Below, piece after piece: positions 10,292 through 54,339 of a stretch of 64,000 nt of DNA. This DNA comes from Allodiplogaster sudhausi. Its lineage: Eukaryota; Nematoda; Chromadorea; Rhabditida; Diplogasteridae. The notes under the pieces are model-generated. The model saw only the letters and a list, made by a program, of their open reading frames with translations. It had not been told where the DNA came from and searched no databases. The stretch is from assembly GCA_945643635.1 (NCBI GenBank), contig CALZFC010000057.1, positions 357,001-421,000 on the forward strand. Reading direction: 5' to 3'. Position numbers and translations under genes: made by a program. Positions within the stretch are counted from its first letter, which is position 1, and each line of letters opens with the position of its first letter.

Positions 10292-11303
10292 TCAGCGCCT
10301 GGAAATGACCGAGGCATTTTTGGTGGCCGGCGCCGGTAGAATGTACTCGAGGGCAGAAGCGAGGAAGCCCTTGGTGCGGCGGCCTCGCATGTTCTGCGAG
10401 ATGGTCTCGACACACTAAAAATAGAGAGTGTGAGAGATGAGAGAAAGAAAGAGAGAACTGAGAGAGAGAGAACTGAAAGGAGAGTATTGATATAGAGAGA
10501 GAGATTGAAGAGAGAGAGAGAAATAGAGAAAGAAAGCGAGAGAGCGAGAGAGAGAGAAAGAGAGAGAGAGAGAGCGAGAGAGAGAGAGAATAACCTTCTC
10601 CGGAGTCGGCCGGAGGTGCGGATTGAGGTTCCAGCAGCTCTTCCAGAGCTCGTCGAGATAGCCGGGCACGCGAGGAGAGACGCAGACGAGCTTCTTGCCG
10701 GAGAGGATGTACTTCTTGAGCTGGAAAGAGGGCGAGGTCAGGGGAGAGCGAGAGATATGGGAAGGGAGAGAGGGCGAGGTCAGGAGTGAGCGAGAGATAT
10801 GGGAAGAGAGAGGGCGAGGTCAGGAGAGAGCGAGAGATATGGGAAGAGAGAGGGCGAGGTCAGGAGTGAACGAGAGATATAGGAAGAGAGTGGGCGAGGA
10901 AGGAGAGAGCGAAGGTGAGAGAGAGAGGGCAGGGAGAAAGAGATGAAGAAAAGGGAGAGAGATAAAGAGAAATGAGATTGGGAGAGCGATATAAGAGAGA
11001 GGGAGAGCGAGAGAGAGAGAGAAGAAAATGAGAGAGAGAGGGAGAGAGAATACAAGTGAGAGTGGAAAAAACGAACCTCTTCAAGTCCATCGATCTCCTC
11101 ATAGGGCGTCGCGGCGTTATGGTAGACCTAATATATGCAAGAGTTATAGCCACTGTCTTCGCTCACGTTCTTTCTCTTTCTCTTTCTTATTCTTTCTTTT
11201 TCCATTCACCTCCTTGTACTATCCCTCTCCACTCTCTCTCCCGTCTCGCTATGTGTCTCTCGCTCTCTCATAATTTCTCTAGTTTTCTCCACTGCTTCCT
11301 CTC

Positions 11304-11341
<38 letters not shown>

Positions 11342-11423
11342 TCTGTACCTATCTCTTTCTTGATTTCTCTCTCTCTCATTCTCTCTATCTCTCCCTCTTC
11401 GTCAGTATCTAGCTCTTTCTTGA

Positions 11424-11473
<50 letters not shown>

Positions 11474-11584
11474 CCCAACCTCCCAAATGAGCACTCCATA
11501 GCTCCAGAGAGAATTGATGACGGCGCCAGACTTCAGGCGCGACATACCGACCGCACACCTTGAAAAAGCAGGATATGTGGAATA

Positions 11585-11635
<51 letters not shown>

Positions 11636-13057
11636 TTTTCTCTCTCACACTCTTTCTCTCTCCCTTCCTCACTCTTTCTCTCTCACTCTCTTTCTCTCTC
11701 TCTCTGAAACCCTCTCTTAGTAAGAGAAAAATGAACCTCAACACTCTTGTCCTGGATATTGATACCGAAGATAGCCTTGCCAAATTCAGCTGAAAAGAAA
11801 ACCAATCATATGACTTTTAATATTGCACTTTTTCACATGTATATACCTTAGGTTGCATTAGATTTTGAAAACAGCATTTTTCTTATTAATATTTGGCGCC
11901 AATAAACGCACACAGCTTGGCGACGTTCCTGTCCGTCACGATGCAGTTCCTTGCGCAGATGTCGCGATGAATGAGCTGCACACAAAAACGATTCATTAAC
12001 CGGGATCGAACCTTCGAACCTCTGATTCCTTCGCCTATCGACTTGCCACTTGGCCACCCCAACCCTTACCAAGCGCTGCTTGAGGTAGATGAGCGCGCGC
12101 GCGACATCGAGGAAGTAGCTCTCGCGCTGTCCGATCGTCGGGCCGGGCACGCGCGAGACCACCTGATCGAGCGAGCCTTGCTCGGCATACTCGACTGCCA
12201 ACAGCATCTGGAGGGCGGAGGGATACTGTTGGTGGAGAGAATGTAGAAAATTAGACGAAAATATTAGAGGGGAAGGGGTTACTGTAGGAAACAAAAACTG
12301 TAGGACGGGTATATTATAGGGGAATACGGTTGGAGGAGGATACTGTAGGAGGGTGATACTGCTGTTAGAAGGGAAAACTGTAGGAGGGTTATGCTAAATG
12401 ATTTGAATGCTCTAGGAATTGCACTATAGGGGGAGATACTGTAGGAAGGATAAGGGTTAAACACATTAACAAATTTTTAGAATCAAAAATCGCCGACCGG
12501 CGTTTCAGAGAGAGCGATTCCGACAAAGATGACAATGTTCGGATGGACAAGTGAGTTGAGCTGGCGTGCTTCCTGAAAAAATTCTTTTTTTTTCCTTTGT
12601 CTCTTCAAACTACAGTAACCTCAGCACATTGTATGTATATATAGCGTGGAATAATGAGATAGGTATCGGCAAAATTTTGCCCACGGTACATTTTGTATTC
12701 ATTGTTTTTTAAGCCATGTATGTATCTCACAGAAGCTACCGTTCATCTACAGTAACTCACCACCGCCAATATTCACGTACACCAACAGTTTTTATCCAAT
12801 ACCCTCACAGTAACCCATCCACATGCCTTCAGCAATCACCTCTATCTACAGTAACACATCCCATCCACCTACAGTAACCCACCATAAGCCGGTCCTCCCT
12901 GTGCTGGAGGGTCTCCGTGTACTCGGGGTTGAACTGGCGGACGGCGCACTGGCGACGCCAGCCGAAGAGGCCGACTCGCATGCTCCCCAGGAACATTGCG
13001 CCGTACTCGCCGTCGCCCAGCTTCTTCTCACTGGAAAAGAGAGAGAGAGAGAGAGAC

Positions 13058-13100
<43 letters not shown>

Positions 13101-15344
13101 CAGAGAGGGAGAGAGAGAAAGAGAGAGAGACAGAGAGGGAGAGAGAGGAAGAGAGAGAATATGAAGATGGGAAGAGAATTTGGGTGAGAAAAAAAGGGAA
13201 TTTTTTTATCTCGCTTTCCTAACTAATACGCATGGAAGGGAATGCATGAGATTTACCAGTCAGGCAATATGTAAAGGAATACTATGGAACTTTATCAAAT
13301 TGCTCTCGCTTTCATGGCGCGTCGCTGCACGCGTTGCGGCTCGCGTCGCGGTTCCTCAAACTGACAACGTGATCTCGTCGCTGCACAGCATCCACGCGTC
13401 CTTCTTGATGGCTCGAATGAGAAGGGCGCCGTTGGTGTCGATCGGAACGCGGTGGCGACAATGGTACTCGATGAGGCCTGGACGGGGATAGTCTATTTCT
13501 CTCTTTCTCTCTCACTCTCCCGCTCTCTTTCTCTCTTTCTCTCTCTCTCTCTCGCATCTCTCTAACTCTCTCTCTCTCCCTTTCTATCTCGCGCTCTCTC
13601 TCTCTCACTCTCTCTCGTTCTCCCTCTCTCTCGTTCTCTCTCTCTCGCTCTCGCTCTCTCTCCCTCCTTCTCACCCGCCGTTGTGTCGAAGCAGAACTGA
13701 TTGAGATAGAAGACGTTCTTTCGGCTATGATGCTTGATGAGGAATTCGCTGTAGAATCCCTCGTGCATGTAGCAGATGATGAAGCGCTCTTGAAATAAAG
13801 ACATTTTGAAGTAACAAATATACGTTATAAAATCTGTTACAATATTTCTGTGTTATTGAAATAATATTTAGCCTATTTTTGTTTTCTTGTGCGTCAAATT
13901 TATTTTATTTTTCTGTCTGTACATATAAGTTCTCCTTCTTACTGTATTTTATTCTCTTTTAGTCTGCTCGAACTTCAGCTTCTCCGCACTATCGAGCACT
14001 GTTTTCTCTCTCTCGCACACTCCATGTCTCTCTCTTTCTCTCTCTCTCTCTCCTTATCTCCTTCTCTCTCTTTTTTCTCTCTCTCTTCTCCTCACCTTCT
14101 TCTTCCTCTCATTCTGCTCGCCCGCTCTCGCCTGCCTGACGAGGAAGTCACCGTCCCTCTTGAGCAGCGGCCTCAGATGCTCCCTCCGCATCAGCGAATG
14201 GAAGAACGGCTCCTGCTCCATGTCAATGTAGCCGCCGGCCTTAAAAACTCACGTTTGAATTCGCGCTCTTTTTCCTGAGATACAGAGAGCGCCCAGTTTC
14301 ATTCGAAAAATCATTAGGAAATCATTGTTGGCCATTTTTAATTTCAGTTCTAAATCTGAATTTGAATTTAAACTAATGTGAATGACTACCACTTTAAGTG
14401 AAAATTGTAGTCGCATCACTCGAAATGATAATTGCAGTTAACTAAAATGACCACTGTTTCGGATCCGCATATTCAATCTAAAGTAAATTAGCATTTCGCT
14501 TGTACTCGCGAAAATAAGCAGTTGTATATCGATTTCTTTTGTGACACTTTTCCAAAAGAGGAGTTTGGCACTTTGCCAAAAGAGGAATTTGGCACTTTGC
14601 CAAAAGATGAATTTGGCCGCTTGCCATGCCACGCCCCTTCACCTCATCCTGCGAGATGCGCGTGAGCTGGATCATGCTGCGAGTGGCCCTCTCCTTCACC
14701 TTATCTTCCTCCTCCTCTGTCTCCTTCTGCTGCTGCGTCTTCTGGCGAGCGTCGCCAAGCAGCGACTGAAATATTCATTTTATTTTTTTTAATTAATATT
14801 ATTATTTACTAACTTATTTTCAAACTCATTTATACTTTAATAAAGTAAAGATCTAAATTTCTATGTGTTGTTAAATTTGATAATTTGATAAAAAAAATTT
14901 CACCTCCGTCGATTCATCTGCACTCGATTCGCAAGACGGCAATCTCGTGCGGCTGCTTGGCAACGTGGGCGGAGCATTCCCAGGAGGGGCGGACCTTGGC
15001 AAAGGGGGCGGAGCTTGTCCAGGAGGAGGAGCGTCCACTTCGGGAGAGGAAGAGCCGCTCTTGCGATTAGCCTGAAGTATTGATTTTTTATATATTATTT
15101 ATGTATTATTTTGTTTTAATAACTTAAATATAAAAATTTTTTTATTTACTGTTAGTTTTATTTATTTGTTTCTCCTTTAAGATTGTTTGCTGAAATAAAT
15201 GTAAAAAAAAACATTAATCTTTTTTATAAACATTTTGAAAGTAAAAAGAATTAAAAAAAATAAAATGATGTTCGAAGATAACAAAAGTATAACCTCAGTC
15301 GATGCAGTCCCGCTCGATGCGAACGCAGGCTGTTCAGTAGACAT
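10292..15344 (-). CDS. SH2-domain non-receptor tyrosine kinase (Fer/SPE-8-like), degenerate active site
   Basis: Fifteen minus-strand exons: 15344-15294, 15071-14904, 14765-14643, 14239-14096, 13786-13675, 13492-13366, 13030-12883, 12572-12498, 12207-12070, 11975-11912, 11789-11737, 11558-11480, 11127-11077, 10720-10595, 10414-10292. Phases agree except at exon 12. The product is about 527 residues: MSTEQPAF start, Pro-rich segment (PPPGQAPPPLPRSAPP), acidic helix, SH2 domain (PFFHSLMRREHL, GDFLVRQ, LIEYH) and kinase domain. The glycine loop is LGDGEYGAMFLG, but the VAIK lysine is Arg (CAVRQF). The catalytic loop HRDICARN is kept, and DFG reads SEFG. YVAPE and WSYGVLIWEV are present. Exon 12 is 79 nt between phase-0 introns, so its frame changes between YVAPE and WSYG. 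The SH2-kinase order without SH3 matches nematode Fer-like kinases. It could be a pseudokinase or a recent pseudogene. Confidence 0.85.
10440..10594. repeat. GA microsatellite in kinase intron 14
   Basis: Near-continuous GAGA with GAAAGA interruptions between exons 14 and 15 of the kinase gene. It leaves a usable acceptor (CTATTTTTAG on the minus strand). Confidence 0.8.
10725..11075. repeat. Short tandem repeat array in kinase intron 13
   Basis: Four to five units of about 38-40 bp built on GAGAGAGGGCGAGGTCAGGA followed by GTGAGCGAGAGATATGGGAA, then plain GA tract to about 11,055. The unit is distinct from simple (GA)n and is tandemly iterated from about 10,730 to 10,895. Confidence 0.7.
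11265..11470. repeat. CT microsatellite in kinase intron 12
   Basis: (CT)n with TTTC interruptions on the plus strand, between exons 12 and 13. Confidence 0.8.
11583..11715. repeat. CT microsatellite in kinase intron 11
   Basis: Long (CT)n with CACTCTTT interruptions between exons 11 and 12. Confidence 0.8.
11992..12064 (-). repeat. tRNA-derived sequence (SINE or tRNA relic)
   Basis: On the minus strand an A-box-like TGGCCAAGTGG (12046-12056) is followed by a B-box GGTTCGATCCC (about 12002-12012) at tRNA-like spacing. The flanking 7-nt arms do not pair, so it is not a working tRNA. It sits in the intron between kinase exons 9 and 10. A tRNA relic or SINE head is the likely origin. Confidence 0.4.
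12240..12470. repeat. Degenerate TACTGTAGG repeat, kinase intron 8
   Basis: About six irregular copies of ATACTGTAGGAGGG-type units on the plus strand. The reverse-oriented set lies at 12,610-12,885, on the other side of exon 8. Confidence 0.55.
12610..12882. repeat. Degenerate CTACAGTAACCC repeat, kinase intron 7
   Basis: Dispersed CTACAGTAAC(C/T) units (near 12613, 12749, 12806, 12846, 12870). This is the reverse complement of the motif in intron 8. Confidence 0.55.
13031..13160. repeat. GA microsatellite in kinase intron 6
   Basis: (GA)n with GACAGAGAGGGA interruptions immediately upstream, on the minus strand, of exon 7. Confidence 0.8.
13498..13672. repeat. CT microsatellite in kinase intron 5
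   Basis: CT-rich tract fills the intron between the second and third SH2 exons. On the transcribed strand it is purine rich, so exon 6 has no pyrimidine tract at its predicted acceptor. Confidence 0.7.
14540..14640. repeat. Palindromic TTTGGCACTTTGCCAAA units
   Basis: Two or three near-identical units of the imperfect palindrome TTTGGCACTTTGCCAAA, then a diverged one, ending in GCCACGCCCC. It lies in the intron directly next to kinase exon 3. It recalls the AAGACAAT/ATTGTCTT arrays at 7.1 and 8.9 kb, which are also next to GCCACGCCC. Confidence 0.55.
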
Positions 15345-16419: not shown

Positions 16420-16960
16420 TTAGTATTCGCTTGTGGATGCCCGTGTTGCCTTGGTTTTTTTTCTCTTTTTCATATCGTTCTTTCCGTTTACCATTCGTGT
16501 AAGAGCAGTATTTTAATAGGTTTCTCTTTTGGGTGCTAGGGATCCTAAAAAAATAACCCTGCAAAACCAGTCGATCATCCCAAAAAAAATGTATAAAACA
16601 CTAGAAATCCTCAGATTTTCGGAATACTTTAGGGCAAAAGTGTCTGTACCATCCCGGTTTTTCGTGGTGGACCCTCCATCGGCAATATTTAATGCAACAT
16701 GGTATTAAAAATATGAAGGCGCAATCCCCGGCCTGTGGAACGCTGCCGTACTGGATTTAATCAAATTGTTCTTCTCGGATGCTAGCCTGATTTTGCATTT
16801 TACACATGACTTTTCTCTTGTAAAATTAGTTGTTTTTTTTTAAGGTGCGCCGGGTTTAAATAATTCTTGCCATCAAAGTCAATTAATTGCTATTCGTGCT
16901 TGTTATTATAGTTAAAAAAAAGAAGCATGAACAAATTCTAATTCTGTTCTCATCTTGCAG

Positions 16961-18532
16961 TTTTCGTGCTCGCTCTCTGTTACTGACTGCTACACTAACG
17001 CCATGAAAAACTCCGTGACGACCCTCCCCGGCAAGAGCATCACTTTCGAGGTTGAGACGGAGGAGGACCATATCGAGGACGTCAAGGTCAAGATCCTGGA
17101 CAAGGAGGGCATGTCGCCCGACCAACAGCGCCGTATCTTCACTGGTGAGTGCCATTGTCAACTGCGGTATTAAAGTTTAAGAACTTTCATTTTCAAGAGG
17201 GGAATTAATATTATAGTATGAATGTAGTATGTTTTGTTTGTTTGGCTTTAATATGTCTTTGCCGGTAGGTGTCATAATCGGCTTGCTTTCCTTTGTTGCG
17301 TTTCCCTTGTTTAACACAGGAAAATTGAGCAGAAGAATTAGGTGAGACTTGTGGAGATATTCTTCTGAAAATGATACATCTCTTATGGGGACTTGAATTC
17401 CCGCCTTTAAAAGGAATATATAACGTGCGCAAATAAATTGTAAAATTTTTATAATGTTATTAAACAGTGTTCAAATGTAATGGCTATTTCATCATTCTTT
17501 TCAGGCAATCAGCTGGAGAATGGCCGCGCTCTCGGTGAGTCTACTGGCGGTGGAATGCATATCTTCGTGAAGACTGTCACCGGCAAGACCATCACTCTCG
17601 AGGTCGAGAGTCATATCGAGAATGTCAAGGTCAAGATCCAGGGCAAGAAGGCTATCCCGCCCTACCAGCAGCGTCAGAGCTTCACTGGTGAGTTTCATCA
17701 CCAACTTCTTTATTAAAGTAAGAGAATATAAAAGTAAAATAACGCCTATTTTCAGTGGGGATATTACTTAAAATACCATTTGAATTACCATTTCAATGTA
17801 ATATTACCATTTGAAAGTAAAACTTTGGCTCTATCATCGTCAACTTCTTTATTTAAGTAAAAGAATAATAAAGTAAAAGAACGCCCATTTTCAGTGGGGA
17901 TATTACTAATATTACCATTTGAATTACCATTTCAATGTAATATTACCATTTTAAGTTGCAACTTGAGCTTTAGCTCGTTTTGTTTAAACTGTGATTAAAT
18001 ATAGTCAAACGGCTTTTACTTCACTCTTTTCAGGTAAGCCGCTGGAGAATAGCCGCGCCCTCAGTGAGTCAACTCGCCGTGGAATGCAGATCTTCGTGAG
18101 AGGCTTCACCGGCAAGACCATCGCTCTCGACGTCGAGGCCACTGACGCCATCGAGAATGTCAAGGCCAAGATACAGGACAGGGAGGGCATCCCGCCCGGT
18201 CGACAGCGCCTCAGTTACGCAGGTTCGTTTCATTACCCGAATTATTTCATGTTTTCGCATAGTTTCCACTTATGAAAAGGAAAATTCAGCCGAAGAAATT
18301 ATTGGAAAATTTAGTGGTATTATTTTAAAAATGACACATCAAGGAAGTGGTTTTCACGCCTCGCGCTTCATTAAGAAAATATAAGCTGCTTAAATAAAAT
18401 ATTAAATTTTAATGTTATAATTTTAAAATAACAATGTTTATTAATTCAGTCGGTTCAGGCAAGAATCTGGAGAATGGCCGCACCCTCGCGGACTATAACA
18501 TCCAGAAGGAGTCAACTCTTCATCTCTGCTGA
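16961..18532 (+). CDS. Divergent polyubiquitin-like gene, 195 residues
   Basis: Four exons: 16961-17144 (ATG at 17003), 17505-17687, 18034-18222 and 18459-18532, each intron phase 1. The coding length from 17003 is 588 nt with no stop until TGA at 18530-18532. It reads as three ubiquitin heads ([54 protein letters not shown]), each cut by an intron after the residue equivalent to Gly47. Between heads the normal [19 protein letters not shown] tail is reduced to GESTGGG or SESTRRG. The last unit keeps [13 protein letters not shown] but ends in Cys, without LRLRGG. The reading frame is intact, yet a normal conjugatable ubiquitin could not be released from it. It is either a ubiquitin-fold repeat protein or an old gene under weak constraint. 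A 5' non-coding exon upstream is likely (acceptor CTTGCAG). Confidence 0.85.
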
Positions 18533-18540
18533 GTTACCAA

Positions 18541-18557
18541 TGAAGAATCTCTCTTTC

Positions 18558-18600
<43 letters not shown>

Positions 18601-18630
18601 ATCTTTCTCTCTCTATCTCTCCCCTCTTCT
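18541..18630. repeat. CT microsatellite, ubiquitin-like gene 3' flank
   Basis: (CT)n in the presumed 3' UTR, just after the stop codon. Confidence 0.75.
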
Positions 18631-18984
18631 TGTCCCCTCTATTTATATGCCTTCTTCTCCGGCCTTGAGGCCATTTTTTCCTACTGACTGAAACATCCTT
18701 TAAGGTGTTGTTATTTTTTACTGTAATATTTTCTCCCCATTAATTCCAACCAGGTGAAACCATCCTCGACTTGTGCATTTACTGTTTAGGTTAATTTACA
18801 TATGTTTTGATTTGCACATTTACATGAAGAAGTAAAGGTCATGTCAAGAAAGTAGAAAGTAGTACGATGCAAAGAAGTATGAATGTTGAGGAATTAATTT
18901 AAGTGAATTAAAATAATAGTGAAATCAACTTTGATTGGCAGTGTACATGGAAGTACGGTAGGGGCACTGAACGGGAGGGGGACG

Positions 18985-19194
18985 GGTTACGGTAGGAATA
19001 CCGAAGGCTGCTTGGGTTACGGTAGGAATACCGAAAGCGACTTGGGTTACGGTAGGAACACCGAAGGCGACTTGGGTTACGGTAGGAATACCGAATGCGA
19101 CTTGGGTTACGGTAGGAATACCGAAGGCGACTTGGGTTACGGTAAGAATACCGAAGGCGACTTGGGTTACGGTAAGAATACCGAAGGCGACTTG
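18985..19194 (+). repeat. 30-bp minisatellite, seven units
   Basis: Seven tandem 30-bp units beginning GGTTACGGTAGGAATACC, with 1-3 substitutions each. The last two units share A for G at one position (GGTAAGAATACC). Because 30 is a multiple of 3, a frame through the array stays open (GYGRNTEGDL per unit), within an open frame at 18919-19284. Coding use is not supported by flanking exons. Confidence 0.85.
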
Positions 19195-19908
19195 GGAAAA
19201 AGCGAGCGAGATGAGTGTCATGATTTGATCCTGAAGAGGAACAGCCTTGGGTTGTGTTGGGGTCCTGAAGAAAAATTGATGTAAAAATTGCGCGATTCCA
19301 CTACACAGATGGCGACTGCGAAATAGTAGCCGTCAATATAAATCTTAAAACAGGGAAAGATTTCATGCGCTAAACACGTTGTTAGAAATATTTCGTTGAA
19401 ATCTGAGTGCATCCTGAAAGCGGATAAGAAGTGCGAACATTGTCGAATAACTTACTTACAGTTTGCACTTAATAATTCCAGCAATTAAAAGGCGCTTAAA
19501 CGGCCAACAGTAGTAATTGCTGTTCGCACTCTGTTATTTCGACTGCAAATTGGCTACAAACGAGAGAACCGTCTAACGTCGACAGAGTCTAACTCTAATC
19601 TCCCTGCCCTCTACTTTTCGTTTCTCTCTTCTTTTCGATTTTCTAATTGTGCATTTCGTTCCATTTTTATATGGCATTCTGGTTGCTAGGATAGGCTACC
19701 AACTTCCCTTCCTCAGTCTCAACTGGCTATCCTAGCAACTTCATCCTTTTCCATATGGTTAATAGTTTTATGTCTAACAAGCCCAGATTATTATTAATGA
19801 TGTTTTGTACATATGAATATCGCAATCATTCAATCAATACCACCATTTGTCAGGATTACTGGTTAAATTTCGAAAATGATGGAATAGTTGTTGTTGTTGT
19901 TCAGCCAG
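19195..19908. other. Intergenic
   Basis: No supported gene. A 13-bp inverted repeat, GTTGCTAGGATAG with CTATCCTAGCAAC, lies at about 19,683-19,740. Confidence 0.4.
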
Positions 19909-30086: not shown

Positions 30087-30712
30087 ATATAGAATACTGC
30101 GAGTGAATGTATGTAAGGATCCATGGTTATTTTCCTAGCTTTCCATGATGATTCCAATAAGACACCTGGTCATGGAACATTTAATAAAGATCAAAATTAT
30201 CAACCCATATCCACCATCATCAATTCATCGTCATCAATTTCGTCTCTACACTCGTCGAGAAGGAGACTGGCGGCCCTTCGTTTATTCTTACCTTTTAAAT
30301 TGAATTTTTGTTTGTTACCTTTCATCTAATTTGTAAACAAAAAATTTGCAAAAAAACACAAGTTTTTTGCAAGAATTTAGATGAGCGCTGCATGCATGAG
30401 CAAGGACATATCGGCCGGAGAAAAATATTCATAGGATTCTGTAGGTATTTATGACTTCTGCACACTCTCTCGTATCGCTATAAGCGAAAAAAGTGCTGAA
30501 TATGTTTGTATACCTTCTGTGATATCAATATCCCGAAAATTTAGTGGCTCGTCACGGACGGCTCGAGCTGCTCGGAGGTTGTTATACATGAGTTTGTTTA
30601 AAGCTGTTTTGAAAATCTAACCGTACAATTGTTTCTTTCGGCCCGATTGGCGAGCACCTTCTCGATCTCTCCGTGTTCGATCGTCAAATAAAGCTTGTCG
30701 CGCAACCCGCAG

Positions 30713-30811
30713 AAAGATAGGATCGAATCGGATGCCGACGCCACACTCACGTTGCAAATTTTGCAAGTCATTTTGGACTGCTACGCCGATACTCAGTTCT
30801 CGTTTGAAAAG
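30713..30811 (+). other. Candidate exon upstream of the BTB gene
   Basis: A 99-nt, phase-0 open segment after CCCGCAG with donor GTAAAG reads KDRIESDADATLTLQILQVI, then LDCYADTQFSFEK. The opposite strand also has an open frame (CGLRDKLYLTIEHGEIEKVL), so the coding strand is uncertain. It is mirrored in the right arm near 39,545-39,645. Confidence 0.3.
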
Positions 30812-31024
30812 GTAAAGGGAGTTAAGACTTATGTAAATACCGTACTTTAGATGATTTTGTGTTGTCAGTTCAGACAGATTTTTGCGACAAAACTAAGGCC
30901 ATGCTGCTGCTACGTTGTAGTGGACAGGGAAAATAAAGGCTGATGCAACTCGTGCATTCGGTCACATGTTGGAAGATGCTCAGCAATGATTACGATCGCG
31001 CATTTTATCACGGGCAGAAGTCCT

Positions 31025-31026
31025 CT

Positions 31027-31065
<39 letters not shown>

Positions 31066-31320
31066 CTCTCTATATTCTTCGCTCTCTCTGTTCTAATCTC
31101 TTGCCAACTTTGCCCACTCACGCAACATTGTGTTTGTCCATTTGACCTTTGTCTTTCTCTTTCTGCTATCACCTTCTCTAACCAGCGCTTACTAATTTTC
31201 TCCTTGCCGTCTCTCTGTCTCCTCTACTTTTCTCGCCGCATCTCATCCTAACGTCACCTTATGATTGTGGATGGTGGAAAGAGCAGAACGATGATTCATG
31301 GTAAACATGCAGTCAATGCA
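31025..31320. repeat. Repeat family R1 with CT tract
   Basis: A (CT)n tract is followed by ACCTTATGATTGTGGATGGT and GATTCATGGTAAACATGC. A second copy is at 27,130-27,285 and the mirror copy at 39,030-39,330. Confidence 0.5.
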
Positions 31321-31384
31321 TTTGCATATGTCGTTATGAATGGGAAGATCAAAGGCATCGGCATTCAGTTAGTTTTCCCTCGAT

Positions 31385-31745
31385 GCTGAGATGTGCACTG
31401 CTCGCACACGTATGTCACTGGAGCCTGGTCACCTCCTCGGGACGTCGCGCACCCCGCATACATACCACACTGGGAACCTGCCAACCCCAGTACGGTGTCG
31501 AGGAGATCTGCTGCTGGCTGCATCAACCCCCCCCCAACCCTCCCCCGCTCTTCATCAATTTACAATAGATCTTTCCTACAATTTGTTATTCTTCTTCTTC
31601 TTCTTCTTCTTCTTCCTTTCCACCGATTATTGCATTACATTTTTCTTCAAAACGCAATACTTGTATCTTGCAATCTTCTCGTTCTCAATCTCTTAATGTC
31701 GCCACATCTTAGTGATGTATTGAATAAATAAATAAATAAATAAAT
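31385..31745 (+). mobile_element. Probable LINE 3' end with (AATA)n tail
   Basis: About 340 bp of non-coding sequence with C-runs and (CTT)n, ending GTATTGAATAAATAAATAAA. This terminal tetranucleotide tail is typical of non-LTR retrotransposon 3' ends. No reverse transcriptase is seen next to it. The mirror is at about 38,600-38,960. Confidence 0.35.
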
Positions 31746-31900
31746 TCTAGCCAATGTGGTTGTGCACGTCGAAAGTCATGGGTCCCAGGTTCGAAGCCGC
31801 GCGCGTGCAAACCCTTTTGCGGGCTTTTACCACGGGAGATCTGTAAAACAAACATCGGTTCTGACCTTTGTGTGCTTCGTGGAGCAGAATGATGCATTGG
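31746..31900 (+). repeat. tRNA-derived SINE-like sequence
   Basis: TAGCCAATGTGG (A-box-like) and GGTTCGAAGCC (B-box) lie about 40 bp apart, directly after the (AATA)n tail. The mirror is near 38,445-38,598. Confidence 0.35.
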
Positions 31901-33039
31901 ATGAGTAAGAAACATTAAGATTGCACGAAAAGTTGGAAAATGCGGATCTGTTAGTTTTGATGCGACCACCTTAGGAAAATCGATACTGTCATTGGTAGGG
32001 AAGCCCTATCCAGATGTAATGGATGTATGTTGTAGAGAATTTTGTCGCGTACTGAAGAGTATTATCCGCATACTGTTCTCGCTGAAAACATTGAAAACAC
32101 AGCGATTCGAATAGTATTCGGTCATTTTCTGACAATGGCTGAAAAATCGAAAAATGCGTTTTTTTCATGGAAGATGATAATTTTATGAAATTTTGATAAG
32201 GAGCTTTTTTGTAAAGAAGCACATGCTCAATCGAATGAAATGGTTCATTTTATGTTTAAACAAGAATTTAACTTCTTTTCACGCATTCCTTGAATCCTAC
32301 ATATCCGAGGTACCCATATTTGAGCCTATTTTCCACCCCTTAGGGGTAGTGCACACGAAGCGAAAAGAATATATGTTATAAAAATTTTAATGCTCTACAT
32401 TTTGAGATATAAGATGAGTGTAAGGTACAAATTCAAATATTAAAAGTAATTTTTCGATGTGAAAAAATAGTTAACTGAAAGACATCTGGGCTGATTTTGT
32501 TCAGAATCCAACGTTGATTCCGTTAAAAAAAAGAAAATAGAAAAATATTGATATTAAAGAAAGTTATGGGGACTTCAACTTTTTCCATACATTTGCATGC
32601 CCAGACAAGGAAAAAAATTTTATAACAAAATTGACCTTCTAATTTTCTTCATAGCGCGCATGGGTACCCCAAATTAAATTTTGGATAACCACAGAAATTT
32701 TTGCCCCGGGGCAGGCTCCCACTGAGGACTGCTTGATCCTAACAGAGAGGCTCTCTTAAATATATTAGAGTAATGCGATGATCAAAGAGCTGCAACGTCG
32801 GAGTGGATCTGTAAATTTGGAGTGATTTGCACTGCCCTCTTTTGTCTCTTTTTTTCTTTAACCAGAGCTCTTTTTAGATAATTCGATCGTCAACAAGGGC
32901 CGCAGACGAAATGCGTGCAGTGCTATTTCGAGGCATGATTCGTTCCATCCTTTCTCTTGTAAACGGCTGAGGAGTTCATTCGTAGGATTTACAAATTAAT
33001 GTGCGACAGTTAATTAAAGTGCTGTATGAAAGAAAATGA
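31901..33039. other. Non-coding arm sequence
   Basis: No exon recognised. The short open frames here are mirrored exactly in the right arm and lack splice or domain support. Confidence 0.35.
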
Positions 33040-33075
33040 AAACTCATCTCTTCATTTGCTGCTTCCGAAAATCCG

Positions 33076-35313
33076 ATGTCAACTCTGGCGAACCCTCTGG
33101 ACCCTCGTCACTTCTCGCAGTCAAAGCGGGGAAACTGGTCGCTCTTTGACCATTCCGGCCTGCCCGATGCTTGCGTGGTTGTCCTTGGAGTCAAGTGGGG
33201 GGGGGGGGGGGGAGAGCAGTGGACCTACACACTCAGCGCATCGGTAAACAAATCTTGTTGCGCTGAACATCTACATTTTTCTATTAATTTTTTTTCTCAC
33301 TACGTACTACATATCTCTTTTTGATAAGTGTTTGGCGGAAAAATATTTACTTTTCTAACTTCAGCTTCTGTCGATATACTCGGAAACACTGCGAACGGAA
33401 ATTGGAGAGCCTGAAGAAGGGAATCGGAGTATCCTATTCCTAACCGAGGACCCGGATATCTTCGAGGACTTCCTGGATGTCATCTATCCACCTCACAAGA
33501 AGGCGGACAGTCATCGACATATTTGGAATTGATGAGACGTTCTCATTTCAGGATTCTCATATTATTAGGATCACTTATCGTTCTCGTCTGAATAAGATCT
33601 GGGAGTAAAAATTAATGAAATAATGTTCGAGAAAGTGATCCGTCTGTGCACTTAAATTTAAACTTAATCTTAATAGCACTTAATAGTTTATTATGGAGCA
33701 GCATTTGTTTCTGGTTTGAAAAAGTTAACCTTTTTCACCAGAAAAGTTTAATTTATGGTCCAAAAAATGCAATGCATTTCAAATACCGTATTTTCTCTAT
33801 TAGTGCCCCACCCTTTTTCTAGAACCCCCCCTCTAATCGTCCCCCCCCCACCTAAGGTCATTGAAAAATAGTATTGACTCCCCCCTGTCCAATAGTGCCC
33901 CCTTAATAGTCTAATATCTCGGCTCACGACGTACCTCGAATGAATCCAGGAGGCATGAGATGCTCTTCCCAATGAACTTATTGCAAATTCATTCAAAATC
34001 TCCCGTAAAATGGATATTCGAGTGATCATTCCATTGAATTCGAGCTAAGATTCTTCTTTTTTTGAAAGTAAAATGTTGTTATCAAACTTTTTGTCAATCA
34101 CATTGAAAAATAGTACCCCTCATTCCAATAGAACCCCCCCCCCCCCCCTCTAATAGTGCCCCCTCTCGCAAGGGCATTGAAAAATAGTGTCCCCCGGGGC
34201 ACTAATAGAGAAAATAAAGTAATCACAATTTTGTGTTTTGAAGTAGATTTTTTTTAAATATAAAAAAATCAGATTATTTGAGGTTGTTCTGATTGCGGTT
34301 TACGTGTCCTTCCTCGCCTCGCCCTTGCCTACCGTCTCAAGTCCCCATTTGCTATTGGCACCTTCGAGGATGCGATTGTGAACAGCTGGAGGATGCAGAC
34401 GATTATCAAGGTTTCATTTAGTTTGTTAATTTTGTTGTTGTTATAAAATAGGTATTTGAACCCATGTTCACTCATTTTAATAGTACGGCAATGCTTTCAG
34501 TCTAGAACATTATGCTCCAAAATGAGGTATACGGTTCGGCTAAAAAAAAAAGGTTTTTTTTTCAAATTTGAATCAACCGGGTGACTCGTCATAAAGCTTC
34601 AGGTAAAAGGGTGTATGCTCTTTTTCGGACCTACTTTTTTATCCTGATTTAGAGCGAAGGCGAACAGTCGCTCCTTGCTCTCCTGCAACTTCAACTCGAC
34701 CAGGAAGTTTTCAACGATCGTGCTGTGTGTGAACTTCAATTCAATCCAATTCGTTTATCGCACATTCCAAAAATATGAAATACATAAATATAAATACTGA
34801 TGTACAGTGAAGATATACACCCATTCATCCAAATAGTACTATCCATAACAATTTTGCCATTTGGGTGATATGACTATTTGTCGCCTTTTTATTTTATCAA
34901 AAATATTTTTTAAAAGAAGCATAGATGCAATAAAAAAAATTATCACTCAATTTTCGCAGTAATTTGCAGTTAGAAATGACGAGAGAATAAAAGAATGACC
35001 GCAACAATAGCGACATGGACATTTTAAGCTTGAGCAAATGCATACGACGGTGGTTTAATATTTGCAGCCAACTTTCCTGTTGGATTGGTCGTCGAAGAAG
35101 GAGTTCGAAAGTGCAAATGGCACTGAGATGAGCCGCCAACTGGATGAAGTCATCACTGCCTTCTACAAAGACGGCATGATAATTTCCGTCACAACAGTTT
35201 CCGAAAAAATAATTTATCTTCAGGCGAGTGAAGAAATTTTTTACCATTCTCATTTATTGATATGTGTAGATATATCAAAAAGAACAGAGTTCCTAGACAA
35301 GTTCCCTGATTGA
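33076..35313 (+). CDS. BTB-domain protein gene (left arm plus spacer)
   Basis: Exons 33076-33243, 33365-33509, 34283-34410 and 35068-35313 join in phase (687 nt, 228 residues). The product reads GNWSLFDHSGLPDACVVVLG, a Gly run from a 16-G tract, QWTYTLSAS, LLSIYSETLRTEIGEPEEGN, FLTEDPDIFEDFLDVIYPPH, then VLPRLALAYRLKSPFAIGTF. This matches the BTB/POZ fold (FD.sg.pDvvvvv, yS.tl, F..fLdviYpp, LAyr). BTB proteins are usually adaptors for cullin-3 ligases. The last exon (PTFLLDWSSKKEFESANGTE) lies in the palindrome spacer. A 99-nt phase-0 exon expected between the last two (FTHSTIVENFLVELKLQESK) is present only in inverted orientation at 34733-34635. The start at 33076 is not certain because no clear acceptor or promoter is visible. 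Confidence 0.65.
33784..34221. mobile_element. ACCGTATTTTCTC MITE in BTB gene intron
   Basis: Complete 438-bp copy, from TACCGTATTTTCTCTATTAG to GGCACTAATAGAGAAAATAA; the last bases of the right end are mutated. It carries the same internal phrases as the 1.8- and 3.8-kb copies. Confidence 0.8.
34635..34733 (-). other. BTB/BACK-type exon in inverted orientation (left arm)
   Basis: A 33-codon phase-0 exon (STIVENFLVELKLQESKERL, FAFALNQDKK) with donor GTAGGT on the minus strand. It resembles the helical segment following BTB domains, but points opposite to the flanking BTB exons. Confidence 0.5.
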
Positions 35314-35472
35314 CACCATTATTAATAGAGTAAGGAGAAGTAGACTATTCGCTAGAAATGAATCAAAGAATCGTAAAGGACTGCCAGATATACCGAACTT
35401 GGAAAGCATATAGAGGAGATGGGATAGGGCACTGAATCGAAGGCCTTTGTATCAATTACTTTACAAAAGTCA
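35250..35472 (-). pseudogene. Non-LTR retrotransposon reverse transcriptase fragment
   Basis: Minus-strand frames read KVIDTKAFDSVPYPISSI (RT motif A), then, after a frameshift, LSKFGISGSPLRFFDSFLAN, then NQGTCLGTLFFLIYLHIS (compare PQG.vLGpLLFLIYiND). Order and spacing fit LINE RT. It begins at the palindrome spacer/right-arm junction and overlaps the end of the BTB terminal exon frame. Confidence 0.75.
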
Positions 35473-35609
35473 TATCACCCAAATGGCAAAATTGTTATGG
35501 ATAGTACTATTTGGATGAATGGGTGTATATCTTCACTGTACATCAGTATTTATATTTATGTATTTCATATTTTTGGAATGTGCGATAAACGAATTGGATT
35601 GAATTGAAG

Positions 35610-35708
35610 TTCACACACAGCACGATCGTTGAAAACTTCCTGGTCGAGTTGAAGTTGCAGGAGAGCAAGGAGCGACTGTTCGCCTTCGCTCTAAATCAGG
35701 ATAAAAAA
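35610..35708 (+). other. BTB/BACK-type exon, right-arm copy
   Basis: Mirror of 34635-34733, here on the plus strand, downstream of the spacer exon. Acceptor TTGAAG, donor GTAGGT, phase 0 at both ends. Confidence 0.5.
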
Positions 35709-35932
35709 GTAGGTCCGAAAAAGAGCATACACCCTTTTACCTGAAGCTTTATGACGAGTCACCCGGTTGATTCAAATTTGAAAAAAAAAACCTTTTTTTT
35801 TAGCCGAACCGTATACCTCATTTTGGAGCATAATGTTCTAGACTGAAAGCATTGCCGTACTATTAAAATGAGTGAACATGGGTTCAAATACCTATTTTAT
35901 AACAACAACAAAATTAACAAACTAAATGAAAC

Positions 35933-37265
35933 CTTGATAATCGTCTGCATCCTCCAGCTGTTCACAATCGCATCCTCGAAGGTGCCAATAGCAAATGGGG
36001 ACTTGAGACGGTAGGCAAGGGCGAGGCGAGGAAGGACACGTAAACCGCAATCAGAACAACCTCAAATAATCTGATTTTTTTATATGTAAAAAAAATCTAC
36101 TTCAAAACACAAAATTGTGATTACTTTATTTTCTCTATTAGTGCCCCGGGGGACACTATTTTTCAATGCCCTTGCGAGAGGGGGGCACTATTAGAGGGGG
36201 GGGGGGTTCTATTGGAATGAGGGGTACTATTTTTCAATGTGATTGACAAAAAGTTTGATAACAACATTTTACTTTCAAAAAAAGAAGAATCTTAGCTCGA
36301 ATTCAATGGAATGATCACTCGAATATCCATTTTACGGGAGATTTTGAATGAATTTGCAATAAGTTCATTGGGAAGAGCATCTCATGCCTCCTGGATTCAT
36401 TCGAGGTACGTCGTGAGCCGAGATATTAGACTATTAAGGGGGCACTATTGGACAGGGGGGAGTCAATACTATTTTTCAATGACCTTAGGTGGGGGGGGGA
36501 CGATTAGAGGGGGGTTCTAGAAAAAGGGTGGGGCACTAATAGAGAAAATACGGTATTTGAAATGCATTGCATTTTTTGGACCATAAATTAAACTTTTCTG
36601 GTGAAAAAGGTTAACTTTTTCAAACCAGAAACAAATGCTGCTCCATAATAAACTATTAAGTGCTATTAAGATTAAGTTTAAATTTAAGTGCACAGACGGA
36701 TCACTTTCTCGAACATTATTTCATTAATTTTTACTCCCAGATCTTATTCAGACGAGAACGATAAGTGATCCTAATAATATGAGAATCCTGAAATGAGAAC
36801 GTCTCATCAATTCCAAATATGTCGCTGACTGTCCGCCTTCTTGTGAGGTGGATAGATGACATCCAGGAAGTCCTCGAAGATATCCGGGTCCTCGGTTAGG
36901 AATAGGATACTCCGATTCCCTTCTTCAGGCTCTCCAATTTCCGTTCGCAGTGTTTCCGAGTATATCGACAGAAGCTGAAGTTAGAAAAGTAAATATTTTT
37001 CCGCCAAACACTTATCAAAAAGAGATATGTAGTACGTAGTGAGAAAAAAAATTAATAGAAAAATGTAGATGTTCAGCGCAACAAGATTTGTTTACCGATG
37101 CGCTGAGTGTGTAGGTCCACTGCTCTCCCCCCCCCCCCCCCCTCACTTGACTCCAAGGACAACCACGCAAGCATCGGGCAGGCCGGAATGGTCAAAGAGC
37201 GACCAGTTTCCCCGCTTTGACTGCGAGAAGTGACGAGGGTCCAGAGGGTTCGCCAGAGTTGACAT
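35933..37265 (-). pseudogene. BTB-domain gene, right-arm copy
   Basis: Mirror exons 37265-37096, 36974-36830 and 36060-35933. The first exon reads AAG TGA where the left arm has AAG TGG before the G-run, a nonsense codon. The run also differs in length (170 versus 168 nt exon), so the frame is lost. The spacer exon present on the left is not available in this orientation. Confidence 0.6.
36123..36555. mobile_element. ACCGTATTTTCTC MITE, right-arm copy
   Basis: Mirror of 33784-34221 with a slightly different G-run length. Confidence 0.8.
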
Positions 37266-39285
37266 CGGATTTTCGGAAGCAGCAAATGAAGAGATGAGTT
37301 TTCATTTTCTTTCATACAGCACTTTAATTAACTGTCGCACATTAATTTGTAAATCCTACGAATGAACTCCTCAGCCGTTTACAAGAGAAAGGATGGAACG
37401 AATCATGCCTCGAAATAGCACTGCACGCATTTCGTCTGCGGCCCTTGTTGACGATCGAATTATCTAAAAAGAGCTCTGGTTAAAGAAAAAAAGAGACAAA
37501 AGAGGGCAGTGCAAATCACTCCAAATTTACAGATCCACTCCGACGTTGCAGCTCTTTGATCATCGCATTACTCTAATATATTTAAGAGAGCCTCTCTGTT
37601 AGGATCAAGCAGTCCTCAGTGGGAGCCTGCCCCGGGGCAAAAATTTCTGTGGTTATCCAAAATTTAATTTGGGGTACCCATGCGCGCTATGAAGAAAATT
37701 AGAAGGTCAATTTTGTTATAAAATTTTTTTCCTTGTCTGGGCATGCAAATGTATGGAAAAAGTTGAAGTCCCCATAACTTTCTTTAATATCAATATTTTT
37801 CTATTTTCTTTTTTTTAACGGAATCAACGTTGGATTCTGAACAAAATCAGCCCAGATGTCTTTCAGTTAACTATTTTTTCACATCGAAAAATTACTTTTA
37901 ATATTTGAATTTGACGGTTAAGTACCTTACACTCATCTTATATCTCAAAATGTAGAGCATTAAAATTTTTATAACATATATTCTTTTCGCTTCGTGTGCA
38001 CTACCCCTAAGGGGTGGAAAATAGGCTCAAATATGGGTACCTCGGATATGTAGGATTCAAGGAATGCGTGAAAAGAAGTTAAATTCTTGTTTAAACATAA
38101 AATGAACCATTTCATTCGATTGAGCATGTGCTTCTTTACAAAAAAGCTCCTTATCAAAATTTCATAAAATTATCATCTTCCATGAAAAAAACGCATTTTT
38201 CGATTTTTCAGCCATTGTCAGAAAATGACCGAATACTATTCGAATCGCTGTGTTTTCAATGTTTTCAGCGAGAACAGTATGCGGATAATACTCTTCAGTA
38301 CGCGACAAAATTCTCTACAACATACATCCATTACATCTGGATAGGGCTTCCCTACCAATGACAGTATCGATTTTCCTAAGGTGGTCGCATCAAAACTAAC
38401 AGATCCGCATTTTCCAACTTTTCGTGCAATCTTAATGTTTCTTACTCATCCAATGCATCATTCTGCTCCACGAAGCACACAAAGGTCAGAACCGATGTTT
38501 GTTTTACAGATCTCCCGTGGTAAAAGCCCGCAAAAGGGTTTGCACGCGCGCGGCTTCGAACCTGGGACCCATGACTTTCGACGTGCACAACCACATTGGC
38601 TAGAATTTATTTATTTATTTATTTATTCAATACATCACTAAGATGTGGCGACATTAAGAGATTGAGAACGAGAAGATTGCAAGATACAAGTATTGCGTTT
38701 TGAAGAAAAATGTAATGCAATAATCGGTGGAAAGGAAGAAGAAGAAGAAGAAGAAGAAGAATAACAAATTGTAGGAAAGATCTATTGTAAATTGATGAAG
38801 AGCGGGGGAGGGTTGGGGGGGGGGTTGATGCAGCCAGCAGCAGATCTCCTCGACACCGTACTGGGGTTGGCAGGTTCCCAGTGTGGTATGTATGCGGGGT
38901 GCGCGACGTCCCGAGGAGGTGACCAGGCTCCAGTGACATACGTGTGCGAGCAGTGCACATCTCAGCATCGAGGGAAAACTAACTGAATGCCGATGCCTTT
39001 GATCTTCCCATTCATAACGACATATGCAAATGCATTGACTGCATGTTTACCATGAATCATCGTTCTGCTCTTTCCACCATCCACAATCATAAGGTGACGT
39101 TAGGATGAGATGCGGCGAGAAAAGTAGAGGAGACAGAGAGACGGCAAGGAGAAAATTAGTAAGCGCTGGTTAGAGAAGGTGATAGCAGAAAGAGAAAGAC
39201 AAAGGTCAAATGGACAAACACAATGTTGCGTGAGTGGGCAAAGTTGGCAAGAGATTAGAACAGAGAGAGCGAAGAATATAGAGAG

Positions 39286-39330
<45 letters not shown>

Positions 39331-40270
39331 AGAGGACTTCTGCCCGTGATAAAATGCGCGATCGTAATCATTGCTGAGCATCTTCCAACATGTGACCGAA
39401 TGCACGAGTTGCATCAGCCTTTATTTTCCCTGTCCACTACAACGTAGCAGCAGCATGGCCTTAGTTTTGTCGCAAAAATCTGTCTGAACTGACAACACAA
39501 AATCATCTAAAGTACGGTATTTACATAAGTCTTAACTCCCTTTACCTTTTCAAACGAGAACTGAGTATCGGCGTAGCAGTCCAAAATGACTTGCAAAATT
39601 TGCAACGTGAGTGTGGCGTCGGCATCCGATTCGATCCTATCTTTCTGCGGGTTGCGCGACAAGCTTTATTTGACGATCGAACACGGAGAGATCGAGAAGG
39701 TGCTCGCCAATCGGGCCGAAAGAAACAATTGTACGGTTAGATTTTCAAAACAGCTTTAAACAAACTCATGTATAACAACCTCCGAGCAGCTCGAGCCGTC
39801 CGTGACGAGCCACTAAATTTTCGGGATATTGATATCACAGAAGGTATACAAACATATTCAGCACTTTTTTCGCTTATAGCGATACGAGAGAGTGTGCAGA
39901 AGTCATAAATACCTACAGAATCCTATGAATATTTTTCTCCGGCCGATATGTCCTGGCTCATGCATGCAGCGCTCATCTAAATTCTTGCAAAAAACTTGTG
40001 TTTTTTTGCAAATTTTTTGTTTACAAATTAGATGAAAGGTAACAAACAAAAATTCAATTTAAAAGGTAAGAATAAACGAAGGGCCGCCAGTCTCCTTCTC
40101 GACGAGTGTAGAGACGAAATTGATGACGATGAATTGATGATGGTGGATATGGGTTGATAATTTTGATCTTTATTAAATGTTCCATGACCAGGTGTCTTAT
40201 TGGAATCATCATGGAAAGCTAGGAAAATAACCATGGATCCTTACATACATTCACTCGCAGTATTCTATAT
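37266..40270. other. Right-arm mirror of the 30.1-33.0 kb segment
   Basis: Holds inverted copies of the SINE-like sequence, the LINE 3' end (about 38,600-38,960), repeat R1 (39,030-39,330) and the candidate exon near 39,545-39,645. No further gene. Confidence 0.6.
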
Positions 40271-52124: not shown

Positions 52125-54339
52125 CTAACTCTTCAAATGTAGCTGGGGGAAGAGAACTAATGTTTGACCAAAAAAGAAGAAATTGAGAATGACGGTGGGA
52201 ACCTGCGCCATTAACTGGTCCATCTCGACGGAGACATTGAGAGAAGAAGGATTGGCGCTGTTGACCTCCGCCTGAGGGAAGGAGGAATAATGTAAAGGGC
52301 TCTTACTATATGAATGTATGAATAGTAGGCAAGAAAAAGAATGAAAAGCTGAGAGATCAGAGAATAAGAGGAAACAAATGTAAGAAGAGAAAGGAAGACA
52401 GGGAGAGAGCGAGAGAGAGAGAAGTAAAAAGAGAGGCAGAAGGAGAAGGCCAAGAAGAGAGATTGAGAGAAAGAGGGACTGACAGAATGAGAGAGAAAGA
52501 GAAAAAACAAACTGGTATGTCTGTTTGAAGGGTAGCCGGAGAAGATGGATTGGACGGTACATTGCCATTCACCTTATTGGAGGAACTTGTGCGTACCCTT
52601 TATCCATTTTCAACGGTCATACATATATTCACATTCACATAATAATACGCGTATGCTTGTAAAAAAAATTTTTACTCAACATTCGTTAATGGAAAAATAT
52701 ATAATAGCAAAAGGAAAAGAAATGCAAAAAGATTTCACCTTCTCAGCCTTCTCAGTGCAGTAGCCAAGATCCTAAATAAGCTTCTCAATATTCTCTCTTA
52801 CTCTCTCTCTCTCTCGCCATCTTTGTCACCAAACTGAACATAAGCAGTTTTTCTAACCATACAGGCACTCCGGAAATCCATCTCCTCGGTAGACAGCTTA
52901 TCCGGCGGGGCACCAATGACACGGCGTGCCTCTTCTTTTGAAACTTTGGTCGAGAATTCGTGGGGATCCGTGTATTTCATCTCCTTATTGAGCGGGAGCA
53001 GCTTGTCGATAAGCTTGAATTGATTGTCTTAATCATGAAAGATGCTCTAATAGGGCTGATGTCCAAAAGGCATGAGGAAGGAGTGCCACGTACCTCTTGA
53101 AAAAGATGCTTGTTCAGCTTATCGCCATAATTCCGCAGCATAGTAGTCTTGTTGGCGGTCAAGAAAACCCACGTCTCTTTCAGCTGCGGGTACGTTAAGT
53201 CCTGCGAATGCAAGTTTCAAAACAAGTTGCTGAAGTATCAACATACTTACCATTAAATCAAGTACCCGAAATTGCTTTCAAGCTTATTCGTTGACTATAA
53301 TGCGATCAGTCCCAAATTTATTTAATGAAAAATAACCCTAAATGCATACCCTATTATCCCTGCCACGGTTGTTGAACTCGACTTTCCAGACTGTCGGAAA
53401 AACTGCAGGAAACAAAATAACGAAGTCAAACTTTAATCGCAACTTTCCCAACACTCACTCAGGGAGAGATGTGACGGCATTTACATGTCTGAGTACTTGC
53501 AATGAGGACTGAAAGTTGTGAAAATTCCACAATTGCGAAAAACAATAAGAGGTGAAACGAAACGACAGGAAGAAAGATAACAACAGGGAGATGAGAATAT
53601 TAAAAGCAAAAGAGAGAGAGAGAAAGAGAGAAGGCTTCGTCAAGAGAAAATTCGGCTGCATAAGCCGAATGAAAAGGAAGGATCTTTATCTCCAGCCCTC
53701 TAGCATAAAGCGCAGCGAGCAATTTTGCAGTGATAAGATTAACTAAAAAAATGGAAATCTGATAATTCACTTTACAAACATCAACACAAAAAGGTGGGGG
53801 TTGAGTCAAATTACGAAGAAAATTGAACATTAACAAGAACAGGCAAAGATATAGAGGAAAGGAGAAATGAGGGAAAGAACAAGAAATATAAAGGGACGCG
53901 AGAGAGGAGAGGAAAGGGTGAGAATAGGACGAGAAAGATGGAGAAGAAAAAATTGATTTTAAAAAAAAACAGAAATTGATGGAGAAAAAGATTTGGCCCA
54001 AAGGGCTAATCGTAGGCTTGGCTCTTCAGTGGTCTCTCAGGGATCAAGGATGAAAGCCAGTGTCCTCAGAAAGAAATGGACCTCTTCTTCCTCTCCACTC
54101 AAATCTATTTTTAAATGCAATAAAAGGAGGTGCTGCCAACCTTCGCAGATGACAACGCGCTGATATTCGCGTGCGACGACACCCTCCTGGTCGATCCTGG
54201 CCATAACATTTTCGAGCGTATCTGAAGCGTCGAAAGCGATGGGGATTTTTTCGCCATTCGCTCTAATCACTTCGACGCGCATGCCGCCAGTGGCTTGCGA
54301 GAACAGACACTGCGAAGTGACAACGGAAATTAGAGACAT
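52125..54339 (-). CDS. Ubiquitin-like domain protein with unknown helical C-terminus
   Basis: Minus-strand exons 54339-54141, 53402-53350, 53201-53094, 53013-52858, 52771-52739, 52572-52513, 52271-52203 and 52142-52125. Total 696 nt, 231 residues, every junction in phase, TAG at the end. Residues 20-66 match the ubiquitin N-terminal half: MRVEVIRANGEKIPIAFDAS, DTLENVMARIDQEGVVAREY, QRVVICE. The donor sits where the polyubiquitin-like gene also has its intron. The remainder (DLTYPQLKETWVFLTANKTT, MLRNYGDKLNKHLFQE, LIDKLLPLNKEMKYTDPHEF, ARRVIGAPPDKLSTEEMDFR) is mostly helical, ending in a polar Ser/Asn/Pro-rich tail. I do not recognise that part. An alternative terminal exon (54104-54037) would give a short ubiquitin-fold protein instead. 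Function unknown. Confidence 0.6.
54037..54104 (-). other. Alternative terminal exon of the ubiquitin-like gene
   Basis: After TTAAAAATAG, phase-compatible with the exon ending at 54141, it reads DLSGEEEEVHFFLRTLAFIL and DP, then TGA. EEVHFFLRTL aligns with the last ubiquitin strand (STLHLVLRL), but residues equivalent to about 48-62 and the diglycine are missing. Confidence 0.5.

Follow-up and report, generated by a model that had tools for sequence, protein, structure and literature searches.

The ubiquitin-derived gene and its surroundings

The window (the whole stretch of 64,000 nucleotides that was analysed) corresponds to C57:357001-421000 of Allodiplogaster sudhausi, and searches were made against the 351.8 Mb assembly with its 382 contigs. 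On the plus strand it carries a gene of four exons which join to 588 nt, i.e. 195 codons and a TGA, with no internal stop. All three introns (360, 346 and 236 nt) are of the GT-AG type, and each splits the ubiquitin codon G47 in phase 1. A reading of the sequence alone had given the same exons and the same open frame, together with the junctions GESTGGG-M and SESTRRG-M and the end STLHLC-stop, and all of these proved to be as read. The elements of the gene are listed here; a second copy on contig C13 is described below.

16961..17002, plus strand: 5' UTR segment after the 3' splice site TCTTGCAG (AG at 16959-16960), kept in the C13 copy
17003..17144, plus strand: exon 1, start codon and unit 1 residues 1 to G47 (first base), donor GTGAGT
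17145..17504, plus strand: intron 1, within codon G47
17505..17687, plus strand: exon 2, which completes unit 1 (junction GESTGGG) and begins unit 2
17688..18033, plus strand: intron 2, within codon G47; it contains a tandem duplication of 139 nt which has no counterpart in C13
18034..18222, plus strand: exon 3, which completes unit 2 (junction SESTRRG) and begins unit 3
18223..18458, plus strand: intron 3, within codon G47, aligning with introns of canonical arrays
18459..18532, plus strand: exon 4, remainder of unit 3 up to STLHL-Cys-stop, with an in-frame deletion of residues 70-76; C13 peptide identical

The donor of exon 3 (GTTCGT, intron 3) is weak and identical in C13. The Pfam ubiquitin family (PF00240) matched three stretches of the 195-residue product (E 1.7e-49), and the tandem units share one frame, as they do in a functional polyubiquitin gene. 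The near-identity of units that also defines such a gene was not found: compared with ubiquitin, unit 1 has 22 replacements over 63 aligned positions, unit 2 has 18 over 61 and unit 3 has 16 over 70.

Just 3' of the gene, a 30-bp sequence is repeated in tandem about seven times (18984-19196). A protein tyrosine kinase gene occupies about 10300-14200 on the minus strand (PF07714, E 1e-23 with joined exons) and probably has an upstream SH2 domain, recognised by eye only. Trichuris suis (Nematoda) was the best of three database matches to a rough concatenation of its exons, at 29%. A search made with a KH exon gave no matches. Two large inverted repeats span 30087-40270 and 43827-63980, with arms that are 99.2-99.4% identical. 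Sequences of the latter are single in the C13 stretches compared and match both arms there, which indicates that this repeat is either recent or an effect of assembly. The tRNA and Rfam scans of the window gave no matches.

Descent from a polyubiquitin array and loss of the unit tails

A ubiquitin query of the genome yielded at least 157 matches (150 of 387 candidates scored), and by hand count those listed lie in about 55 separate places. Arrays are called canonical here by their protein sequence, not by a per-array check of an unbroken frame, and tblastn split one unit in the C44 array and one in the C292 array. In the arrays on C253, C44, C6, C194, C33 and C51 and in both arrays on C1 (C1a and C1b) the units shown are interrupted at residue 47-48, by a break or by an insert; no break at this place is seen in 7 of the 8 units on C115 and 3 of the 5 on C292. 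That the introns of the window gene sit at the same position in every unit had been singled out beforehand. The position, G47, is right, but it is ordinary, because it is a common architecture of the polyubiquitin arrays in this genome, and a special meaning of the repeated intron was rejected on this ground. Four database models which are nematode by name (P0035, P0051, P0068 and P0074) have extra or altered residues near G47. Ubiquitin with Ala19 is encoded by the arrays on C115, C292, C33 and C51 and also occurs in nematode polyubiquitins of the databases.

A DNA search with 16800-18700 of the window gave at least 181 matches (40 of 70 candidates scored). Among the matches listed, the best ones beyond the gene itself were on C13 (85-91%), followed by canonical arrays. 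The stretch 18074-18525, which contains unit 3 and intron 3, matched C194 at 73%, with C1 matching over nearly the same stretch, and 16936-17146 matched the 5' ends of the canonical arrays C253 and C44 at 81%. By DNA the gene is nearest, among the matches listed, to the C253/C44/C6/C194/C1 type (AADTIENV, RTLADYN). These matches to the introns and the 5' end of canonical arrays indicate that the window gene descends from such an array. An origin as a processed retrocopy was rejected, since the parental introns and 5' region are retained. Like the window gene, the polyubiquitin genes on C253, C44, C6, C194, C1, C33 and C51 consist of tandem units with introns in the G47 codon, and the 5' region and introns of canonical arrays are related to its own; unlike them, it has lost all tails in frame and has no LRLRGG.

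Units 1 and 2 are without residues 58-63 and 67-73, which amounts to one loss of 18 nt and one of 21 nt, both in frame. Both losses had been noticed at the junctions and are real, but their limits had to be corrected, to DYNIQK (58-63) and LHLVLRL (67-73). A tree built from first half-units placed unit 1 and unit 2 as sisters with a support of 95, while their attachment to canonical units was weakly supported (51). The sister relationship bears out the view that the shared losses probably preceded the duplication of these units. The end of unit 3 was judged against six canonical array tails (VLRLRGGN-stop in C253, C44, C6, C194, C1a and C1b). It results from an in-frame deletion of 21 nt which removed residues 70-76; the ancestral stop comes next, with an alignable 3' UTR behind it, and the terminal Cys occupies the position of the extra Asn after GG in all six. 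A frameshift origin of the Cys-stop was weak (P 0.066) and was overruled by this alignment.

The same losses were not found in the best 120 of 7,946 database matches. Among the matches listed, P0103 from Brassica napus has one unit without the stretch of about 57-62, with the tails kept, and we know of none outside the A. sudhausi genome that appears to share the losses of the window gene. In the mostly freely accessible literature on nematode polyubiquitin introns and non-conjugable polyubiquitin derivatives, nothing was recognised as describing such a gene.

The LRLRGG end is present in none of the three units, either in the window gene or in the C13 copy. Activation of ubiquitin by E1 and cleavage of the precursor to monomers both need this tail, so neither is expected here. 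A gene with all three unit tails lost in both copies would be unable to make ubiquitin, as the sequence-only reading had maintained, or to conjugate it. The predicted product can most likely be neither cleaved nor conjugated.

The second copy and selection between the copies

When the exon 2 peptide was searched against the genome, 92 matches were obtained (123 of 123 candidates scored), and the shortened junction was present in four of them, two in the window gene and two on C13. The C13 copy (C13:87500-94500) has four exons, both junction losses, the STLHLC-stop and an open frame of 198 codons. Its surroundings (C13:57501-124500) are collinear with the window over a stretch that starts before the kinase gene and reaches 33.7 kb, interrupted by insertions, and C13:1-57500 matches additional parts of the window. 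First half-units of the two copies pair with supports of 100, 98 and 99 for units 1, 2 and 3. The C13 region is a homoeologue, a segmental duplicate or a deeply diverged haplotype. Five pairs of ubiquitin arrays were compared in this genome: the best pieces of C253 and C44 show an identity of 97-100%, and the other four pairs one of 82-93%, apart from one short piece with 97%. By comparison of the two sequences, the shared tail losses can be placed before the split of the window and C13 copies.

It might be thought that a gene of this kind is a mere relic. Among the gene's own units, NG86 gave dN/dS values of 0.72, 0.64 and 0.55, which is near neutral, and the changes with respect to the inferred ancestor were spread over the codon positions as 32/27/27. 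Under neutral substitution the chance of a stop-free frame in all three units is 0.07-0.09, so the open frame alone is modest evidence. From such within-gene comparisons a neutral relic was expected, and it was then contradicted by the C13 copy. A comparison of the units with their parent is left out as evidence, since it mixes in the parent's own branch, which carries silent changes only.

Over 195 codons the window and C13 copies differ at 11, 11 and 20 first, second and third codon positions; the differences are silent in 16 codons and change the amino acid in 22. NG86 gave dN 0.053 and dS 0.160, and maximum likelihood (GY94) a dN/dS of 0.238 (LRT 17.1). Over 194 codons dN/dS was 0.23 (p 2.3e-5) with F3x4 and weakened to 0.46 (p 0.018) with equal codon frequencies, the comparison being one of two copies only. 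The values per unit were 0.17, 0.21 and 0.39, with that of unit 3 not significant (p 0.18). Simulations with equal-rate and with transition-biased mutation put the probability of so few changed codons at 0.001-0.010. With the substitution spectrum found outside the gene's exons, 30.0 changed codons were expected against the 22 seen (P 0.0034), and with the rate found there, 62.5 coding differences against 42 (P 0.0039); the spectrum comes from 13,172 aligned sites which include the kinase exons, so that the expectation is lowered rather than raised. As controls from the same pair of regions, all six presumed non-coding frames had dN/dS values of 0.85-1.10, none significantly different from 1, and the kinase exons (199 codons) had 0.11.

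Insertions and deletions tell the same story of the coding sequence. Outside the gene's exons, 67 of 261 gaps are multiples of three. Within the coding sequence roughly 11.6 gaps between the copies were expected, 8.6 of them frame-breaking, against two that were found, one of 6 nt and one of 3 nt (P(<=2) 0.0007; P(no frameshift) 0.0002). This expectation is rough, in that the counts come from slightly different aligned blocks and may be inflated by repeat-rich flanks. A hand count gave seven indels with respect to canonical units, all multiples of three, with a chance of 7e-5 at the outside share of 67/261.

After the split, then, the coding sequence changed in the way expected of purifying selection, and the indels it acquired were all of three or multiples of three. 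The near-neutral differences among the units indicate that the gene first passed through a phase of relaxed evolution, and the comparison with the C13 copy indicates that purifying selection acted after the ability to form ubiquitin was lost.

The selection may have come to an end recently. The gene would then have been useful in the ancestor of the copies, with one or both of them now decaying. The constraint is intermediate (0.23-0.46) and weaker than that of the kinase exons, and on the window branch of unit 2 there are 7 changed against 3 silent codons; however, every exon is open and all introns are GT-AG in both copies, and we regard recent decay as rather unlikely. A somewhat poorer explanation, and an unlikely one, is that the gene is a dying polyubiquitin duplicate, a pseudogene which has kept its frame by chance. 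It can draw on the loss of every unit tail, on the near-neutral differences among the units, on the chance of 0.07-0.09 for an open frame, and on the stops in other ubiquitin matches of the genome, some of which lie where the match crosses an intron. Against it, both frames are open, a copy with the same losses has a dN/dS well below 1 and outside the range of the non-coding controls, the coding sequence diverged more slowly than its flanks without any frameshift between the copies, and the chance that all seven indels would leave the frame intact is very small. A dN/dS near 1, which had been named in advance as the mark of a neutral relic, was thus not seen in the second copy, and the earlier suggestion of a protein that may serve another use gains support. 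The window gene fits neither definition: its lost tails and its dissimilar units set it apart from functional polyubiquitin genes, and the comparison between the copies sets it apart from pseudogenes.

The predicted product and other ubiquitin derivatives

The explanation we consider probable is that the window gene is a constrained derivative of an intron-bearing polyubiquitin gene, with a predicted product that is uncleavable, unconjugatable and acts non-covalently. In-frame deletions would have stripped each of the three units of the tail that serves conjugation and cleavage, the frame being retained afterwards. The transcript would be spliced and translated into a single stable chain of about 195-198 residues, which presumably would be neither activated by E1 nor cut by deubiquitinases.

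Whether such a chain would be a ubiquitin-fold protein, as had been proposed, depends on the unit. The units were scored with what we take to be the 14 core positions and the strand limits of ubiquitin. All 14 positions are present in unit 3, where the window copy has no replacement and C13 a single one (I-to-V), and the last strand of this unit is cut at residue 69. In units 1 and 2, 11 of the 14 are present and the last strand is lost; among the core positions present, three are replaced in unit 1 and one (window) or two (C13) in unit 2. Hypergeometric probabilities for the unchanged core residues were 0.017 for unit 3, 0.42 for unit 1 and 0.10 for unit 2. Only unit 3 thus appears to retain the full ubiquitin core, and the proposal holds best there; units 1 and 2 fall short of it by three positions and the last strand. 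Unit 3, with its core complete up to residue 69, probably folds as a ubiquitin-like domain, and units 1 and 2 may be extended or partly folded modules.

Within the Ile44 patch, the surface that is read by proteasome receptors, residues 8 and 44 are L and I in unit 1, V and S in unit 2 and F and S in unit 3, and this holds for both copies. The chain would act via non-covalent contacts which do not involve the usual Ile44 face, given that in both copies the second and third units have Ser44. A dominant-negative mimic in the manner of UBB+1, itself ubiquitinated and clogging or tuning the proteasome, would suit the missing Gly76, the missing cleavable junction and the lysines 48 and 63 retained in unit 3, but is improbable with the Ile44 patch so altered.

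UBB+1 is a misframed ubiquitin without a usable C-terminus which arises by misreading of a normal gene. The window product would share the lack of a usable C-terminus, but its form is encoded and inherited. Another likeness is found in UBBP4, described as a human ubiquitin pseudogene with functional variants, where an altered protein is used from a ubiquitin copy thought dead (PMC7066184). Its product UbKEKS is still conjugated to targets (PMC7066184), whereas the window product has no conjugable tail and its gene has the parental introns. UbL40 and UbS27a of Plasmodium are divergent ubiquitins in ribosomal fusion genes, with UbS27a of Caenorhabditis cited too, and the UbL40 forms are described as retaining the hydrophobic patch and most lysines (PMC10457151). 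As in the window gene, the ubiquitin of one gene was freed from extreme conservation while others stayed canonical, in nematodes too; unlike it, they are fused to ribosomal proteins (PMC10457151), and the window gene is a changed polyubiquitin array with its tails lost. Human UBC has dual splice sites at unit borders (PMC10809524), whereas the introns of the window gene lie inside the units. The window product would work least like a modifier, and the nearest published counterparts seem to be pseudogene products and divergent ribosomal-fusion ubiquitins.

Other ubiquitin derivatives were observed in the genome. In an array at C29:3804800-3808000, a further polyubiquitin derivative without unit tails, 11 exons in the stretch fetched are followed by one ordinary tail, and the exons join ubiquitin residues 47-53 straight to about 16-47, giving a 39-residue repeat with variants. 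C21:528000-535200 and C9:4486000-4495800 each hold several tandem ubiquitin-like genes, some of two units, which pair between the contigs and have tails such as VLRYVGG, ALRFHGG and VLRLHGG; one of their units is preceded by a Cys-rich stretch which resembles a RING domain by eye and has no Pfam match. Paired ubiquitin-like genes on C63 and C32 have the altered tails STLFLLGRLPSG and STLYLLGG. At C16:3139500-3143900 there are two inverted copies of a ubiquitin variant, about 2.3 kb apart, which are identical over the first half-units compared; their tail is RLRRG, and the second unit matches only to residue 42. Within the window, an intronless ORF of 100 amino acids (54037-54339, minus strand) carries a second, very divergent ubiquitin-like domain. 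Its PF00240 match (E 0.0026) falls below the cut-off; it matches ubiquitin chains, and tblastn against C13:1-57500 gave no match for it.

Few proteins are as conserved as ubiquitin, which is kept so by conjugation, cleavage and its many partners. It is possible, and we suggest it tentatively, that a nematode lineage turned polyubiquitin arrays into non-modifier proteins, with the window and C13 genes as the selected case and those on C29, C63/C32 and C21/C9 as candidates. If this is true, ubiquitin serves as raw material for repeat proteins. A copy which lacks precisely the parts for conjugation and cleavage and is nevertheless under selection would allow one to ask which parts of ubiquitin are reusable without tagging, and in what way a polyubiquitin gene can escape from concerted evolution.
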